20,342 nucleotides of DNA from a virus, in the IMG/VR virus record IMGVR_UViG_3300017788_000227, positions 1 to 20,342 of that record; one strand, written 5' to 3'. How positions within the stretch are numbered: position 1 is the first letter of the stretch; each line of letters opens with the position of its first letter. The position numbers were made by a program, and so were the translations under genes. Under the pieces are notes generated by a model. It was not told the origin of the DNA, ran no database searches, and was given only the letters and a program-made list of their open reading frames with translations. Of the stretch, positions 8,468 through 20,120 are shown one piece after another.

Positions 8468-10348
8468 TTATCTTGTTTTCTTGCCGTTTTGGTAACTTGA
8501 CTGAATATCAAATCTTGTTCCAGAAGTATTTGCACCTGATGAAATACTATCTTGCTTCATAAAGAAGTTGCTCTTAGAAACATCTAGTTGCAAATACAAT
8601 TCCTTTCTCGCTAGAACATCATTTGATAGAGGAACTGCTTGAACTTCAATAATATTGTCTGGTAAACTTGTTGAAGTAATATTTACAGTATCTATAAGGA
8701 TTTCGCCAGTGCTATAATTGACTGTACCAAACTTAGTTGAGAGAATATTGATCTCATCGTCAGATACCACTTTGAAAAGGAACAAATTACCAATATTTGA
8801 CCCATTTACAACCATATCTGAGAAATAGCAAGTCCCATCTACGTTTAGGACACTAAATCCTGTGCTCTTGATATTATAGTCATTCCTACCAGCATAGAAT
8901 TCATTATCAAAGCACAACTCATACTGAGTTGGATTATTTACTTTTGCAACTAAGTCTCTTCTAATTCTTACTGTCGTAATATTTGAAGTGATGGCAGTAT
9001 TTACACTGTCGATTAGTGAACAGACTTTGCTATATTTGAACCTTCCTCCAAATTGGTTCATTTCAGAACCTTTTGCATATGAAGTAATAGCAGAAACCAC
9101 ATCAGACTTCAAATTATTGGGATCTCCGACAAAGTTTGCATTATAATAGACGTAACTATCAATTTCTACGTAGAGATACTTTAGATCTATAAATTCAGGA
9201 ACAATTCCTGCAACAGAATAACTCTTCAGTGATTGTAAAAGTTGTTTTTTGGTAAAATCTGATAAGAATGATCCGTTTCTTGGTTTAGTTGCAATAAAAA
9301 CTCTTCCATATTGCGGTGGAGTTAGGTCTTCTCCGCCGTATGCACTGACACTTTCAATATTTGGGTACAGTGTTGGTAGAATTGCTTCATAATCACTTGC
9401 AGTTACTGCTCTATACTGCGATGAATACAGTCTAGGAGCGTAGTATTTGACGCTCTCAACGGGTTCTATCTCATCACCGTTCTCTGAGGGTGCTTGAGTA
9501 GTCAAATCAGCGATGAAGGACGTTACAGAAGCACCGTTTTCATCTAAAATATTACCAGCAAACCTAAAATCAGAAACTCCATTACCATCTTTACCATTTG
9601 TTTTGATGTATGAGACAGTAATTACGTTTCCAGACTGCAATTTCTTGCCAAAAACGCCATCACCAAACAAAATTTCGTATTTTTCGTCACTAGTTTCCTG
9701 AATTAGGTAAATATTTGACGTTGAAGTGATACCTAGGATATTATCAACTAACTTATACTCAATCGAAGTGGTATCTGTTGACGTATTTTTGACCCTTACA
9801 CGCAAAGTTGATGTATCTACGCTGTCATTTGGAATAATATAGCGTTGATTTGGTTGAGAATTATTGACTATCCAAGAATTTTCTAGATATTGACCTTGAT
9901 AAATTTCTAATGTACCAAAAGAATTGCCGTTTTGCGCTGCTACGGTGACTTTTTCTGGCAGAGAGAAAATATAATTGACATCAGAGACACTTCCATTAGC
10001 AACAACGCCTGGTTGAAATGAAATTGTATCTACAGATGTTGAAATTCCACTAATAAAAAATCCGACTGACGCTTTTGCTGCACGTTTTGAGCGAGGAACA
10101 TACCCAATATTGCGTGCAAGAGATACAACATTTTCGCGTAAGGTGGCGGAATCGATAAAAGTCTCGTTCACCACCATATTTGTGTTATATGCTGTGATAT
10201 AAGAGTTGTATGCAAGCAGATTTATGATGACCGATAGGTTAGAACCTTCAAAATCATAGTCTGTAAAATCAGTATTCGCTCTTAGATAATCCTTGATTGA
10301 GGTTTTTATATCCTCAAAGTTTAGATTTGTAAACTGTGTTAGTGCCAT
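8468..10348 (-). CDS. gp6: Baseplate wedge protein gp6
   Basis: A 626-residue protein, close to T4 gp6 (about 660 aa). The N-terminus (MALTQFTNLNFEDIKTSI, then NLLAYNSYITAYNTNMV and the RENVVSLARNIGYVPRS stretch) is characteristic of the gp6 / Mu J-like baseplate family. The middle contains a Y-x-A-P-R-x-Y-x-S-Q-x-R-A-V-T-A-x-D-Y-E segment near residues 300-325, also typical of baseplate J-like proteins. In T4, gp6 dimers tie neighbouring wedges into the inner ring of the baseplate. The start ATG overlaps the gp25 stop by one base (TAATG), consistent with translational coupling, and the giant structural gene follows after 3 bases. Confidence 0.92.
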   Translation of the reverse strand: MALTQFTNLNFEDIKTSIKDYLRANTDFTDYDFEGSNLSVIINLLAYNSYITAYNTNMVVNETFIDSATLRENVVSLARNIGYVPRSKRAAKASVGFFISGISTSVDTISFQPGVVANGSVSDVNYIFSLPEKVTVAAQNGNSFGTLEIYQGQYLENSWIVNNSQPNQRYIIPNDSVDTSTLRVRVKNTSTDTTSIEYKLVDNILGITSTSNIYLIQETSDEKYEILFGDGVFGKKLQSGNVITVSYIKTNGKDGNGVSDFRFAGNILDENGASVTSFIADLTTQAPSENGDEIEPVESVKYYAPRLYSSQYRAVTASDYEAILPTLYPNIESVSAYGGEDLTPPQYGRVFIATKPRNGSFLSDFTKKQLLQSLKSYSVAGIVPEFIDLKYLYVEIDSYVYYNANFVGDPNNLKSDVVSAITSYAKGSEMNQFGGRFKYSKVCSLIDSVNTAITSNITTVRIRRDLVAKVNNPTQYELCFDNEFYAGRNDYNIKSTGFSVLNVDGTCYFSDMVVNGSNIGNLFLFKVVSDDEINILSTKFGTVNYSTGEILIDTVNITSTSLPDNIIEVQAVPLSNDVLARKELYLQLDVSKSNFFMKQDSISSGANTSGTRFDIQSSYQNGKKTR

Positions 10349-10953: not shown

Positions 10954-11586
10954 CTATCCCGAGATTTTCACAGTCTCATACATGAAGTCGTCTGAAGTTT
11001 CGATCTTTCTAAGGTTTTCCACAGAGTATTCTGTCAAATCTATTTCATAACCTGGGTTTTTTGTAATTCTATTTTTTGTCCATGCATCATCAAACCAAAG
11101 GATCTTATTATTAGGATACGCATAGAAGTTTCCATTATCCATTTTGAATACATGAGCACACTTATGTTCTGGTGTCTCACTAAAATTTGTATTCAAAGTA
11201 GATTTCGATTCCCATGACCAATCAAGGGTGAACAAATAAGTACCCTCATTTTTTTCTCCACGATAATTTATAAGTTCAGCTCTAAGATTTGCAAGTCTAG
11301 ATCTGACCTGAACATCAACATATGGGGAAAAACAATCCCACCACATGCACTCTTCTAACTTTGGAGCAGGAGCATCTGGTTTCCAACAAAATGCATGAAT
11401 AGGTCTTCTTGTCCAGTTTACACCATTTTCTAAAAATGCTTCAAATAGTGGAACATGTTTTTCTAAAGATGCTATAGAATGAACATCACATAGTGTCACT
11501 TCTCCATGACCTTTCTTATGATTGTATAAAAACTCATTACGAATGTAACAAGTTATTGTTGGCAGGTTGTGATTTAGATATGCCAT
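10954..11586 (-). CDS. Conserved-looking hypothetical protein (210 aa)
   Basis: I cannot assign a function. It starts MAYLNHNLPTITCYIRNEFL and is soluble, with many aromatic residues (notably a CMWWDCFSPYVDVQ stretch near residues 79-92 and LDWSWES further on). It contains several Cys and His residues (Cys13, Cys33, Cys67, Cys79, Cys84, and HKCAH near 144-148) that might bind metal, though no known metal-site pattern is clear. It is unusual in that the ATG follows directly on the U-tract of an intrinsic terminator, so no Shine-Dalgarno sequence is possible in the usual place. No alternative Met occurs before about residue 80, so the start is probably right. It carries one isolated TTTTCCACA at 11015-11023, probably by chance. 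Confidence 0.8.
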   Translation of the reverse strand: MAYLNHNLPTITCYIRNEFLYNHKKGHGEVTLCDVHSIASLEKHVPLFEAFLENGVNWTRRPIHAFCWKPDAPAPKLEECMWWDCFSPYVDVQVRSRLANLRAELINYRGEKNEGTYLFTLDWSWESKSTLNTNFSETPEHKCAHVFKMDNGNFYAYPNNKILWFDDAWTKNRITKNPGYEIDLTEYSVENLRKIETSDDFMYETVKISG

Positions 11587-12978: not shown

Positions 12979-14364
12979 TTAGAATACGTCAATATCATAA
13001 GTTTTAGAAAATTCTTCAGCATCTTTCCAAGTATTAACAATAGGCATACCACGAATGTTGAGCGATGTGTTTAGAAGAACTGGACATCCAGTACGTTCAT
13101 ACCAACACTCAAGTATTTCTCTAAGGATGCTAGAAGACCATATAGGGACTGTTTGAACTCTAGCGGTATTATCTACATGAACACACGCTGGGATCTCATC
13201 AGGACGCTTACAGTCATATACAAAGGACATATAGCGACTGTCTGATGGCATATCAAAATAATCTTGGCAGTGTTCCTCTAGAATTGCTGGAGCGAATGGG
13301 CGGAACTTTTGCCTCTTCTTTACTGTGTTGACTAAATCCTTCATCTCAAGCGTTCTAGGATCCGCTAGAAGACTTCTATTACCCAAAGCCCGTGGTCCAA
13401 ACTCAGCACGCCCATTCGCAACTCCACACATGCCTTTGTGAAGCAGTGCGTCAACAACCTCTTTTGGATCAACATAACGGTTTACATCATATCCCAAATA
13501 AGGACTAAAGTTTACTTTACCACCATAAGATAATAAAGCCGCACCTAAAGAAGCTCCAGCATCTCCAGGATTCGGCATAATCCATAGCGAAGGATACTCC
13601 CTTTGTAACTTAGCATTTACTACACAGTTCAAAGCAACTCCTCCACTATAACAAATATTATTACTAATACTTCCTGCTCTTTTGAATATTTCTTTCAGAC
13701 ACTCATAAAGAACAATCTCTGCACTCTTAGAGTTGTCTTCTGGTGTTCCTTCAAGAGAGATGGGAAAGCCCTTGTGGTTATTTCTAGAGAGCAAGTTACG
13801 CGCTTGTTCAACGTATAAGGGTCTTCCAAAGGCTCCCATACCCATAAAGATGTATTCTTCGTCTAAGGGTCTCAAACCTGCCCATTTCGTATAAGCCGAA
13901 TACCATAACCCAATAGAACTTGGATACTGCTTAGACCATACTTTTTTATACTTAGCACGTCCTTCCACCATCTGAGCTTGCCAGATTGAAGCAGTATCCC
14001 ATTCTCCAATACTGTCTACGACAACACATGCAGCAGATTGATAAGGAGATGTCTGAAATGCTGCAGCAGCATGGGAAAGGTGATGTGAATAATAATGTGA
14101 GGGAGTAATGTAAATATTTCTAGGTTTGAAAGCACTCTTATACTGTCCTGCAAAGAACTGACGAGTACGCTTTAACCAGGGACGTTCATAGAATGCTACA
14201 ACATCATCTTCAGTATGAAGCAGTGCTTCTGCACATACTGGTAGATTCAGATGCTTATCATGCTTTACTCGTGAATAACGTTCTGCATGAGAAGCAAACT
14301 TGATTTCTCCATTATTGACTACTGATATTGCAGCATCATGAAATCCTTCACTAAATCCAATCAT
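12979..14364 (-). CDS. Carbamoyltransferase, NodU/CmcH type
   Basis: A 461-residue protein with both parts of the family. The N-terminal kinase-like part has G-F-H-D-A-A (His9) and a metal-binding HHLSHA (His94 to His98) followed by VVVDSIGEWDT (Asp117). The C-terminal part has the signature V-A-N-G-R-A-E-F-G-P-R-A-L-G-N-R-S-L-L-A near residues 315-335 and RPFAPAIL after it. These enzymes use carbamoyl phosphate and ATP to place an O-carbamoyl group on a sugar or antibiotic, through a carbamoyl-adenylate. It is shorter than typical bacterial members (about 550-600 aa) but retains the key motifs. The gene starts 1 base after the dehydrogenase stop, so the two are probably co-translated. Such genes recur in marine cyanophages; the acceptor is unknown. 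Confidence 0.92.
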   Translation of the reverse strand: MIGFSEGFHDAAISVVNNGEIKFASHAERYSRVKHDKHLNLPVCAEALLHTEDDVVAFYERPWLKRTRQFFAGQYKSAFKPRNIYITPSHYYSHHLSHAAAAFQTSPYQSAACVVVDSIGEWDTASIWQAQMVEGRAKYKKVWSKQYPSSIGLWYSAYTKWAGLRPLDEEYIFMGMGAFGRPLYVEQARNLLSRNNHKGFPISLEGTPEDNSKSAEIVLYECLKEIFKRAGSISNNICYSGGVALNCVVNAKLQREYPSLWIMPNPGDAGASLGAALLSYGGKVNFSPYLGYDVNRYVDPKEVVDALLHKGMCGVANGRAEFGPRALGNRSLLADPRTLEMKDLVNTVKKRQKFRPFAPAILEEHCQDYFDMPSDSRYMSFVYDCKRPDEIPACVHVDNTARVQTVPIWSSSILREILECWYERTGCPVLLNTSLNIRGMPIVNTWKDAEEFSKTYDIDVF

Positions 14365-14365
14365 A

Positions 14366-15154
14366 CTAAGTTACAGACCAATCAATGACCGTGCGAATTT
14401 GAGTATTATAATCCCAAACAGATTTGAGCATACTTGCATCAATTCCGTTTGCTTCTAGTTGATTTATAAGAGAATTCAAATCTTTTGGAAAACAAGTTCC
14501 ACCAAACCCACGATCATTATCAATACCAGGAACCTGTGTATGAGACTTTCCAATTCTAGTATCAGAAGTCACACCAGAACAAACTGTTTCGTAATCCATT
14601 CCAACTGCTTCACAGAGATCATACATTTTATTAAAGTATGCGACTTTACAGGCAAGAAAACTATTTGCAAAGTATTTGATTGTCTCACTTTCATTGGACG
14701 TGGTAATTAGACTTGGAATATTAGGAAAGATTTGATTAAAAAATTCAACAAATTGGTTGCATAAATTTTGATTTCCACCAACTACATTTCTTTCAGAATT
14801 TCTAAAATCTTCTACAGCATTTCTTGCAGTAAGAAATTCTGGGTTATGGATTACATTATATTTTTGAGCAAACTTTTTAGTTGTTCCAATTGGCACAGTT
14901 GATTTTATTACAAAAATTCCATTCACCAATTTTGGTAAATTATCAAAAAAATTATTTAAAATTGAAAGATTACATTCTCCTGTGGACAGCATTGGTGTAG
15001 GTAGACAGACAAAAATAAACTTTTGCTCTAATACTTCTTCTAGAGTATTGAAAGATTTATTTTTGTCTATATCAAAAACCTTACAAGAAACCTTATCTCT
15101 TAGATTTTGGTAAACTGCATTACCAACAAAACCATTACCAACAATTCCAATCAT
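14366..15154 (-). CDS. UDP-glucose/GDP-mannose dehydrogenase-like protein (short form)
   Basis: The N-terminus MIGIVGNGFVG has the Rossmann NAD motif G6-x-G8-x-x-G11. Family landmarks follow: VFDID, FVCLPTP, IKSTVPIGTT, NPEFLTARNAVEDF, and a lysine in FLACKVAYFNK. The catalytic-cysteine loop is present as GGTCFPKDLNS (Cys221). Family members oxidise the C6 hydroxyl of a UDP- or GDP-sugar to a carboxylate in two NAD steps. At 262 aa it lacks the C-terminal UDP-sugar-binding domain of full enzymes (about 430 aa), so substrate binding must differ. I choose the ATG at 15154 over the in-frame TTG at 15160, because the ATG puts the first strand at the N-terminus. It overlaps no upstream coding beyond a few bases (stop of the 31-aa gene at 15157). 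Confidence 0.88.
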   Translation of the reverse strand: MIGIVGNGFVGNAVYQNLRDKVSCKVFDIDKNKSFNTLEEVLEQKFIFVCLPTPMLSTGECNLSILNNFFDNLPKLVNGIFVIKSTVPIGTTKKFAQKYNVIHNPEFLTARNAVEDFRNSERNVVGGNQNLCNQFVEFFNQIFPNIPSLITTSNESETIKYFANSFLACKVAYFNKMYDLCEAVGMDYETVCSGVTSDTRIGKSHTQVPGIDNDRGFGGTCFPKDLNSLINQLEANGIDASMLKSVWDYNTQIRTVIDWSVT

Positions 15155-15156
15155 AA

Positions 15157-15252
15157 TCAATCATCTTCATAAATGAAAGGGTCTTGACGACGGAGTTTCC
15201 ATAACTTATATTCACCTTTGATCCATCTAATTAGTTTTGCAATTGGGTTCAT
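15157..15252 (-). CDS. Small protein (31 aa), unknown function
   Basis: Reads MNPIAKLIRWIKGEYKLWKL, then RRQDPFIYEDD. It is amphipathic and basic in the first two thirds, with an acidic tail. Its ATG overlaps the stop of the preceding 52-aa gene (ATGA), and it ends 2 bases before the dehydrogenase ATG. This tight coupling is the main reason to accept so short a frame. Confidence 0.58.
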   Translation of the reverse strand: MNPIAKLIRWIKGEYKLWKLRRQDPFIYEDD

Positions 15253-15407
15253 TGTTTAATCTCCAATACTTTAATGTGTTCAGATGTATATTGCGTTGGA
15301 ATACCAGCAGAGATCATTTGTTGAATTTCTTTCGCACGCTGCTCGGCATCTTCTTTTGTAAGATTTTCAAATGCTATCATTTGATCAATGTATACGTTAT
15401 ATTTCAT
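15249..15407 (-). CDS. Small protein (52 aa), unknown function
   Basis: Reads MKYNVYIDQMIAFENLTKED, then a helical AEQRAKEIQQMISAG stretch and a strand-like EHIKVLEIKQ end. The strand-helix-strand look suggests a small compact fold. It overlaps the HNH gene's stop by 4 bases upstream (ATGA) and the 31-aa gene's start by 4 bases downstream, which places it firmly inside the operon. No domain is recognised. Confidence 0.65.
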   Translation of the reverse strand: MKYNVYIDQMIAFENLTKEDAEQRAKEIQQMISAGIPTQYTSEHIKVLEIKQ

Positions 15408-15793
15408 TGTATCACAGATCTTGTTGGTGTGCCATTCTTACCTCTTATATATCTCTTTTTTGCTCCTGTTGTTTTTGGTGTCCGCCATTCTTCTATTTTA
15501 TCCCAACGTTCTTGACTAAAAAAATATTGCTGGAAATACCAAATTTCTACTTCAGTATGAGACTTATCACGGTTGCATTCTTCACAACAACAAACCACAT
15601 TCATTAGTTCATCTGTGCCGCCGAGTGATTGGGGAACAACATGATCAATTGTCATTTGATCTTTATTTTCCCCACAGTATGCACAACAGTTATTCCATGC
15701 TTCCTTGATTGCTTTTCTCCATAATCTTATTGCGTCTGCTTTATTGTTCGCCTGCAGTTGATAAAGATACTCATCTGGAGAAGAGAGTAACAT
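15404..15793 (-). CDS. HNH endonuclease
   Basis: A 129-residue protein with a complete HNH nuclease core: a zinc ribbon Cys37-x2-Cys40 (CAYCGENK), the catalytic TIDHVVPQSLGG (His51), Asn65 in MNVV, and a second zinc pair Cys70-x2-Cys73 (CEECNRDKSH, with the last catalytic position near Asn74/His79). The family nicks or cuts double-stranded DNA with a divalent metal. It has a basic C-terminal tail (GAKKRYIRGKN) that could bind DNA. Phage HNH genes are often free-standing homing enzymes. Here the stop overlaps the next start by 4 bases, so the gene is embedded in an operon and not obviously a recent insertion. Target unknown. Confidence 0.88.
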   Translation of the reverse strand: MLLSSPDEYLYQLQANNKADAIRLWRKAIKEAWNNCCAYCGENKDQMTIDHVVPQSLGGTDELMNVVCCCEECNRDKSHTEVEIWYFQQYFFSQERWDKIEEWRTPKTTGAKKRYIRGKNGTPTRSVIQ

Positions 15794-18984: not shown

Positions 18985-18995
18985 ATAACCCTTAT
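18944..18995 (+). repeat. 13-bp repeat TTATAACCCTTAT, two direct copies
   Basis: Exact copies of TTATAACCCTTAT lie at 18944-18956 and 18983-18995, interleaved with the leader-like repeats. A third exact copy is present in inverted orientation at 19592-19604 inside the DnaA-box region, and a 10-base match at 19502-19511. Confidence 0.8.
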
Positions 18996-19057
18996 ATCTC
19001 TTTCGCGTTTTTGGTTCGTTGTAGGTTAGGGTAGTTAGCGTTTTTAGCTTTAGGCAT
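18992..19057 (-). CDS. Very short basic frame (21 aa), doubtful
   Basis: Reads MPKAKNANYPNLQRTKNAKE then Ile and a stop. It is basic and free of odd residues, and lies between the terminator of the 53-aa gene and the tandem repeats. The length is too small to separate from chance, and the only ribosome-binding candidate (GGGG, 3 bases before the ATG) is too close. Confidence 0.2.
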   Translation of the reverse strand: MPKAKNANYPNLQRTKNAKEI

Positions 19058-19131: not shown

Positions 19132-19293
19132 TCAGAACTCGATCACATCTGCTGTGGGTTGATTATAAGCGACTTGACAAACACTGTCAGATGTAGTAGA
19201 CTGCTCATCGGATGTAAGTGCATCCAAGATCGACAAGATCTCGTTGCCAGTGTTACCCAGACGCAGTGCAGAGATCATCAACGAAGCGGACAT
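19132..19293 (-). CDS. Small protein (53 aa), unknown function
   Basis: Reads MSASLMISALRLGNTGNEIL, then SILDALTSDEQ and a Ser/Thr-rich tail ending in ADVIEF. The N-terminal 30 residues would form an amphipathic helix pair joined by a GNTGNE turn. The composition is coherent throughout, GC content is higher than in the neighbouring island, and a terminator follows its stop, so I consider it real. I believe proteins with the GNTGNEIL core occur in other cyanophages, but cannot verify that. No Shine-Dalgarno is evident; the DnaA-box region lies directly upstream. Confidence 0.68.
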   Translation of the reverse strand: MSASLMISALRLGNTGNEILSILDALTSDEQSTTSDSVCQVAYNQPTADVIEF

Positions 19294-19367: not shown

Positions 19368-19657
19368 TTTTCCACAGGTATCACTGAGATCGCAATCTAT
19401 CACTCAAAGTAACACGAAGGGCACTGTGGAAAACTTATAATAAACTGGGGAAAACGTGTGGAAAACTTATAAGTTTGCTGTGGAAAAGTGTGCTGTGGTT
19501 CTTATAACCCTGGGGAGGATCTTATAGGTTCTCGGTGTGTCTCGGGGGTCTTATGGTGCGACTGCTAAGATGACAACGGCAGCGGGCATTTATAAGGGTT
19601 ATAAGTGTATCAGAGGTGTGTGGGAAGATATAAGAGTTTTCCACAACCTTTTCCACA
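19368..19657. other. Cluster of six cyanobacterial-type DnaA boxes: candidate replication origin
   Basis: TTTTCCACA, reported as the DnaA-box consensus of cyanobacterial origins, occurs exactly six times: plus strand at 19368-19376, 19637-19645 and 19649-19657; minus strand at 19425-19433, 19457-19465 and 19479-19487. A one-mismatch copy (TGGGGAAAA) is at 19446-19454. Two copies extend to the identical 16-mer TGTGGAAAACTTATAA (19425-19440, 19457-19472), 32 bases apart. Additional CTTATAA elements are at 19501-19507 and, inverted, at 19590-19596 and 19599-19605. The stretch has no convincing gene on either strand. About 0.16 exact copies would be expected in this whole window with equal base use. 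The function (origin, DnaA titration or regulation) is inferred. Confidence 0.7.
19590..19605 (-). repeat. Inverted third copy of the 13-bp repeat, with doubled TTATAAG
   Basis: The plus strand holds TTATAAGGGTTATAAG: two TTATAAG elements 9 bases apart. The segment 19592-19604 is the exact reverse complement of the 13-bp repeat at 18944 and 18983. Confidence 0.75.
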
Positions 19658-19660
19658 ACC

Positions 19661-19692
19661 TAATTAGATTATTTTTTACATTTATTATACAA
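19661..19692. other. AT-rich stretch beside the DnaA-box cluster
   Basis: An almost pure A/T run (TAATTAGATTATTTTTTACA and on) begins 4 bases after the last DnaA box and ends before the 98-aa gene. In known origins an unwinding element often sits next to DnaA boxes. It could equally be the untranslated end of the minus-strand gene. Confidence 0.35.
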
Positions 19693-19708: not shown

Positions 19709-20005
19709 CTAACAATTATCAGCGGTGCAGACATCATCAGTAACCAGAAACTTAGCGACTTCAGTATAATTATCCTGTTGCACTGGTGACTTTACTTTGC
19801 GTTCCATGATTTGCCGTTGGTAGTGTTGCACGCTATTGAGATTGGTTGTATAATAGTCGTGCAATTCTACCAGACGTTCACTAATAAGTTCAAGCAAATC
19901 ATCAATCAGATCGACTTCACCATTCGACGTACTATCAGTCAGCATGTCATCAATCAGATCGATGAAGTTCTGATTGAACTTGTTAGAACGATTTGAGAAG
20001 TTCAT
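19709..20005 (-). CDS. Small helical protein (98 aa), unknown function
   Basis: With the ATG at 20005 it begins MNFSNRSNKFNQNFIDLIDD and continues with two acidic leucine-rich helices (DLIDDLLELISERLVELHDY) and a NLNSVQHYQRQIME helix. It looks like an all-helical, possibly coiled-coil protein. An in-frame ATG at 20044 would add 13 residues, but it would lie deep inside the 45-aa gene upstream, so the later start (23-base overlap) is preferred. The stop lies next to the AT-rich stretch of the candidate origin. No family is recognised. Confidence 0.68.
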   Translation of the reverse strand: MNFSNRSNKFNQNFIDLIDDMLTDSTSNGEVDLIDDLLELISERLVELHDYYTTNLNSVQHYQRQIMERKVKSPVQQDNYTEVAKFLVTDDVCTADNC

Positions 20006-20120
20006 TGGTTTGGTAGTCAAGATTTTCAGTGATTGTTTCTTCATTGATGATAGTCAGAACATCATCTTCCCATCGGGTATCATTATAATCGAAGTCGGGT
20101 TGATAGTCAAGTTCGTTCAT
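19983..20120 (-). CDS. Small acidic protein (45 aa), unknown function
   Basis: Reads MNELDYQPDFDYNDTRWEDD, then VLTIINEETITENLDYQTNELLKSF. It is strongly acidic, with no hydrophobic segment. It begins 3 bases after the stop of the 51-aa gene and overlaps the 98-aa gene by 23 bases, as in a compact early-type phage operon. The frame is supported by this packing and by consistent composition. Confidence 0.58.
   Translation of the reverse strand: MNELDYQPDFDYNDTRWEDDVLTIINEETITENLDYQTNELLKSF

Follow-up and report, generated by a model that had tools for sequence, protein, structure and literature searches.

Described origins and the cyanophage locus

Phage lambda and the DnaA-dependent plasmids pSC101, F, R1 and P1 are accessory replicons that draw on host DnaA at or near the origin, and their origins work with an own initiator (O, Rep) and iterons. 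In E. coli, datA and DARS are non-coding DnaA-box clusters with inverted pairs; they stimulate DnaA-ATP hydrolysis or ADP release and contain IHF/Fis sites. The origins of phage T4 combine a promoter with an unwinding element and initiate through an R-loop; the known ones use a middle promoter and are not known to contain DnaA boxes. In cyanobacteria, the nine-base word TTTTCCACA is the DnaA box, for which binding tests are available; it is used by S. elongatus 7942, Anabaena 7120 and Cyanothece, and Synechocystis is noted as an exception (PMC4674748). The first-pass annotation of the DNA studied here had called this form cyanobacterial with reference to Synechococcus and Synechocystis. The first part of this statement holds, but the Synechocystis part is unsupported because of the exception just mentioned.

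The analysed window, 20,342 bases long, is part of the record of a T4-like virus of cyanobacteria, and it carries an array of TTTTCCACA boxes. The locus is like the cyanobacterial chromosomal oriC, where this word lies upstream of dnaN (PMC4674748), in having the same box, the same flanks, 11/21/22/32-bp phasing and an intergenic position. Unlike oriC, it does not adjoin dnaA or dnaN, the adjacency of which is a criterion of the chromosomal origin. It is located instead among small phage genes, with a conserved phage element next to it. Further differences are box pairs placed back to back at 13 bp, a promoter enclosed by the two groups of boxes, and the optional nature of the boxes in the family. 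With T4 origins it shares the T4-like phage background and, judging from the family consensus, probably a promoter whose transcript would enter an AT-rich zone, whereas the sigma70 consensus and the host-type DnaA boxes set it apart. As in lambda and the plasmids, an accessory replicon would draw on host DnaA; however, no initiator or clear iterons were identified at the cyanophage locus. It resembles datA and DARS as a non-coding box cluster with inverted pairs and differs from them in that the array belongs to a phage and its position is tied to a promoter. The locus would be of a kind already known, the DnaA-dependent accessory replicon, and, if demonstrated, would matter considerably for T4-like phages. 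In a limited set of open-access papers, we found no link between cyanophages and DnaA boxes, nor a direct one between DnaA and cyanophage origins.

The DnaA-box array and its conserved position

Six exact copies of TTTTCCACA were confirmed between positions 19368 and 19657 in both orientations, each where it had first been reported. Group A includes the exact boxes at 19368..19376 on the plus strand and at 19425..19433, 19457..19465 and 19479..19487 on the minus strand, as well as a variant box with one mismatch, TTTTCCCCA, at 19446..19454 (minus). The variant is an exact TTTTCCACA in the relatives L040, L187 and L212, and the box at 19479 is lost in L010. Group B consists of the exact plus-strand boxes at 19637..19645 and 19649..19657. 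With TTTTCCCCA in register, the minus-strand run 19425-19446-19457-19479 proceeds in steps of 21, 11 and 22 bp. An isolated further copy of the exact word was found at 11015, away from the array. The count is indeed far above chance, as had been claimed, since shuffled versions of the whole 20 kb window contained 0.5 copies on average and never more than 3, compared with six in the array.

The window runs from T4-type baseplate genes (gp25) through auxiliary genes and the non-coding gap with the array to the start of a small-gene region. The name of the gp6-like ORF (8468-10348) was assigned from position and relatives. The array is intergenic, bounded by the minus-strand ORFs 19132-19293 and 19709-20044, and its flanks are small phage ORFs without family matches; the former ORF (19132..19293, 53 aa) lies between the conserved element and the array. 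The GC content of the array is 43% versus 35% for the window, and short direct repeats are present within it. As for the auxiliary genes that separate gp25 from the array (ORFs among 12979-14364, 14366-15160, 10954-11586 and 15404-15793), PHROG matches indicated a Nol-like carbamoyltransferase and a family labelled ferredoxin, and reading of the translations added a nucleotide-sugar dehydrogenase-like ORF and an HNH-like ORF.

Four close relatives (L010, L040, L187 and L212, of which L040 and L187 are near-identical) share 76-88% identity with the window over this stretch. They keep the layout (345+ 401- 422- 433- 455-, followed by one to three plus-strand boxes), and across the five close relatives 80% of the box columns are invariant versus 53% for the rest of the array. 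Other groups differ in layout, for example L424 (523+ 544+ 565+ 621- 636- 680- 693+), and a 56-bp gap between facing arrays recurs among them. The largest phage arrays contain seven to eight boxes, in both orientations. A blastn search with an array as the query returned only short matches that were chance-like or confined to box pairs.

The locus is marked in most relatives by a conserved non-coding element, the core of which, TTGTAGGTTAGGGTAGTTAG, lies at 19019..19038 (plus strand), about 350 bp to the left of the array; conservation extends over approximately 18990-19046. This wider stretch, TTTTTGGTTCGTTGTAGGTTAGGGTAGTTAGCGTTTTTA, is strongly conserved, occurs once per genome in most Kyanoviridae searched, and is followed by a variable hairpin-like sequence, CACGAACG/CGTTCGTG. 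The element was found once per genome in 13 of the 19 cyanomyophage records searched, and in those inspected it is on the small-gene side of gp25. Scanning IMG/VR with the element alone, independently of any box search, yielded 116 loci. On the gp25 side, these contained no boxes in 375 kb; the opposite side had 41 boxes in 168 kb, most frequent at +250..+750 from the element, a peak that the reversed word did not show. Boxes were present in 18 of the 116 loci; in the set as a whole, many contigs stop shortly after the element.

Next to these loci, 21 complete or near-complete cyanomyophage genomes were considered, a cluster being defined as two or more boxes within 60 bp. Clusters occurred in 12 of the 21 versus 0.14 expected with randomly placed boxes (maximum of 3 in 20,000 simulations); some of the 12 are closely related, three having the same 31-bp pair, and are not independent samples. 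The carriers are the well-studied isolates Syn9, S-PM2, S-SM1, S-SM2, Syn19, S-SSM5, S-ShM2, P-SSM7 and Syn1, as well as DSL-LC02, DSL-LC03 and one IMG/VR isolate record. Nine of the 12 have their cluster no more than 1.7 kb from the element, which is next to the gp25 module; S-PM2, Syn1 and DSL-LC03 lack the element. The locus is at 52.5 kb in Syn9 and at 49.3 kb in S-SSM5. No cluster was found in P-SSM2, P-SSM4, P-HM1, S-SSM7, S-RSM4, S-SKS1, Bellamy, Sf-FS3 and S-SCSM2R, which means that the module is an optional one and that the family as a whole does not require the boxes. Thus, the boxes are clustered rather than spread evenly over the genome, and the question raised in the first-pass annotation, whether relatives keep them at the same place, is answered positively by the element-only IMG/VR loci, the cyanomyophage genomes and the close relatives. 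Both outcomes, either of which could have refuted the annotation, favour a function of the boxes.

Box grammar, promoter and AT-rich zone

Same-strand boxes in the phages are spaced with peaks at 11/12, 21/22 and 32/33 bp, and their flanks follow the consensus A-G-TTTTCCACA-G-G-TTT. Both the spacing peaks and the flank consensus agree with those of TTTTCCACA clusters on cyanobacterial chromosomes. Of 59 cyanobacterial genomes, 48 contain phased pairs and none the reversed pattern. Of 26 picocyanobacterial dnaN loci, 15 have the exact word; when one-base variants are counted as well, the number rises to 20, and most of these boxes lie no further than ~350 bp upstream of dnaN. Because the word, flanks and spacing are those of chromosomal clusters and a box is present near dnaN at most of these host loci, host DnaA is most likely the protein that would bind the phage boxes. 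It should be noted that tandem DnaA-box pairs occur in just 10 of 61 picocyanobacterial genomes (G066-G126), while phages of that family keep long arrays. This scarcity was considered as an argument against host DnaA and was set aside, being offset by the boxes near dnaN in 20 of the 26 loci.

A de novo comparison revealed a family consensus consisting of TTGACA, about 17 bases, TGATA..ATG and then GC.AAGATCACAACA.CT.GACACATTTA. This consensus resembles a sigma70-type promoter directed opposite to the neighbouring genes, and the conserved AAGATCACAA is its predicted transcription start. Scores of at least 18 were reached on the antisense strand at 33 of 110 loci, compared with 2 on the other strand and 0 on the other side of the element. 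In a profile built on ~40 distinct strong copies, box density was 15-20 per kb at -200 and +50 from the promoter and near zero past 500 bp, and AT content was 0.66-0.73 at +20..+160 versus 0.51-0.63 in the 200 bp upstream. Around 14 promoter copies found without box searching, almost all boxes were located at 0..+200. Since the boxes gather around the promoter while its distance from the element varies, they are tied to the promoter and not only to the element.

In the window, the corresponding position is a conserved block at 19549..19592 (plus strand), with TATGGT (19552-19557) followed by GCGACTGCTAAGATGACAACGGCAGCGGGCATTTA, from which transcription would start near 19567. The block is assigned by alignment and position and is weak by score. 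The relatives have TTGACA-N17-TGATA..AT here, whereas no -35 is recognisable in the window's block, that is, its promoter is degenerate. A strict promoter model placed its best hit elsewhere in the window at noise level, so that the assignment depends on the alignment; a loose model gave a score of 16, inside the control range. Promoter-like sites directed leftward are also found near the array, for example at 19190-19162 (11/12 match). The region of the predicted transcript folded only slightly better than shuffled sequences (z -1.3), and neither an Rfam match to a structured RNA nor a tRNA was found.

The AT-rich run reported to follow the array is present: CTAATTAGATTATTTTTTACATTTATTATAC (19660..19691, plus strand) adjoins group B, is conserved in the close relatives and is a candidate unwinding element. 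It is, however, not exceptional, as it is only mildly unstable, at approximately the 4th percentile of duplex stability in the window for 50 bp and the 33rd for 100 bp.

Possible functions of the locus

Three options had been offered at the outset, namely an origin, a decoy for host DnaA and a DnaA-controlled promoter. Among them, an origin-type site fits best owing to the chromosomal box grammar, the conserved promoter and the AT-rich zone; a pure decoy is unlikely, and control of transcription by DnaA is possible, perhaps as part of the same device. Phased boxes on both sides of a promoter, an AT-rich zone, one conserved place in most cluster genomes and the lack of genes to serve fit a replication origin at which DnaA and RNA polymerase of the host would act. 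In our opinion, the locus is rather probably an oriC-like, transcription-coupled site that binds host DnaA and controls phage DNA replication.

Judging from the sequence features, we suggest the following course of events. Host DnaA would assemble in helical phase on the group A boxes, which precede the short host-type (sigma70) promoter, and on the group B boxes, which follow it. Transcription from this promoter would proceed into the AT-rich zone, against the neighbouring genes, and DnaA together with the transcript would open this zone, providing a first fork or an R-loop primer. Such a fork or primer could then be used by the phage's own T4-type replisome (gp59/gp41/gp43), after which recombination-dependent replication would take over. 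T4-like cyanophages carry T4 replisome and recombination genes (gp59, UvsX, UvsY), so DnaA would supply the first opening only; with these genes, initiation as in T4 could also take place. A missing gp59 helicase loader was considered as a reason for the use of DnaA and rejected, as gp59 is annotated in P-SSM4, Syn9, S-SM1, S-SM2, P-HM1, Syn19 and S-SSM5.

The main rival, which we consider unlikely but serious, is a DnaA-controlled transcription switch, in which the bound array would activate or repress the locus promoter or a leftward early promoter and sense the host cell-cycle state without being an origin. It is favoured by the fixed distances at which groups A and B flank the conserved promoter, by the leftward promoter-like sites and by the degenerate -35 of the window, which is as in activator-dependent promoters. 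However, the rightward transcript would be antisense to the neighbouring genes, origins are the more typical place for downstream boxes within a transcribed AT-rich zone, and the length of the arrays with their two orientations also speaks against a switch.

Less probable is a DnaA sink or a datA-/DARS-like regulator of DnaA-ATP, which would titrate host DnaA or shift its nucleotide state and thereby stop or restart host initiation. The exact boxes are more numerous than the few near dnaN in most picocyanobacteria, they would be multiplied by phage genome replication, and back-to-back pairs are present. Titration, though, requires neither the position nor the phasing of the boxes, nor that they be linked with a promoter and an AT-rich zone, and S-SSM5 has only two boxes in its 176 kb genome, both at this locus, which makes a pure decoy unlikely. 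It is very improbable that TTTTCCACA is recognised by coincidence by a phage-encoded or another host protein, such as a packaging or transcription factor. The 13-bp back-to-back pairs, common in phages and absent or rare in the chromosomal set, and the nearby conserved element without a known function would agree with such a binder, but the word, flanks and spacing peaks are those of the chromosomal clusters, and hosts carry this word upstream of dnaN. As for chance or a simple expansion of repeats, to which the short direct repeats might point, both are refuted by the number of genomes with clusters and by the boxes being kept better than the spacers across diverged relatives, the latter ruling out repeat expansion.

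Returning to an origin that responds to host DnaA, its extension to many T4-like cyanophages is, in our estimate, evenly balanced. In this case, their replication would begin from a single hybrid origin, a DnaA-box array fused with a host-RNA-polymerase promoter, and host DnaA, perhaps reflecting the host cell-cycle or light state, would license the first round. For replication start in marine T4-like cyanophages, the prior literature that we found gives one predicted origin, a single theta origin in Syn9 according to a review (PMC2984593), which agrees in kind with the origin reading; one short locus is now named in Syn9 and the other well-studied isolates listed above. GC skew was examined as a possible proof of the origin and gave no clear signal: the detrended extremes are weak, lie 2-13 kb from the locus and have a sign that would sooner point to a terminus, with differences in composition between early and late genes as a confounder. 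If host DnaA acts at the locus, the phages would tie their replication to the initiation system of the host, and this system differs between cyanobacteria. The T4 paradigm of DnaA-free initiation driven by transcription and recombination would then fail for a very abundant group of marine viruses. The presence or absence of clusters among close phages offers a natural comparison.

Several box clusters lie in other settings. In DSL-LC03 (L471, OR003938.1, 80123-80579), which lacks the element, seven boxes occur in 460 bp at a place so far without a tie to gp25, representing a second location type. The 284-kb contig IMGVR_UViG_3300027541_000009 (L374, L413) contains clusters of five and four boxes at 29.3 kb and 239.1 kb, approximately 210 kb apart, possibly reflecting two origins or a mixed assembly. 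In addition, element-less viral contigs, e.g., L009, L011, L018 and L026, contain pairs of TTTTCCACA separated by 3 bp, for example GGT or ACC.
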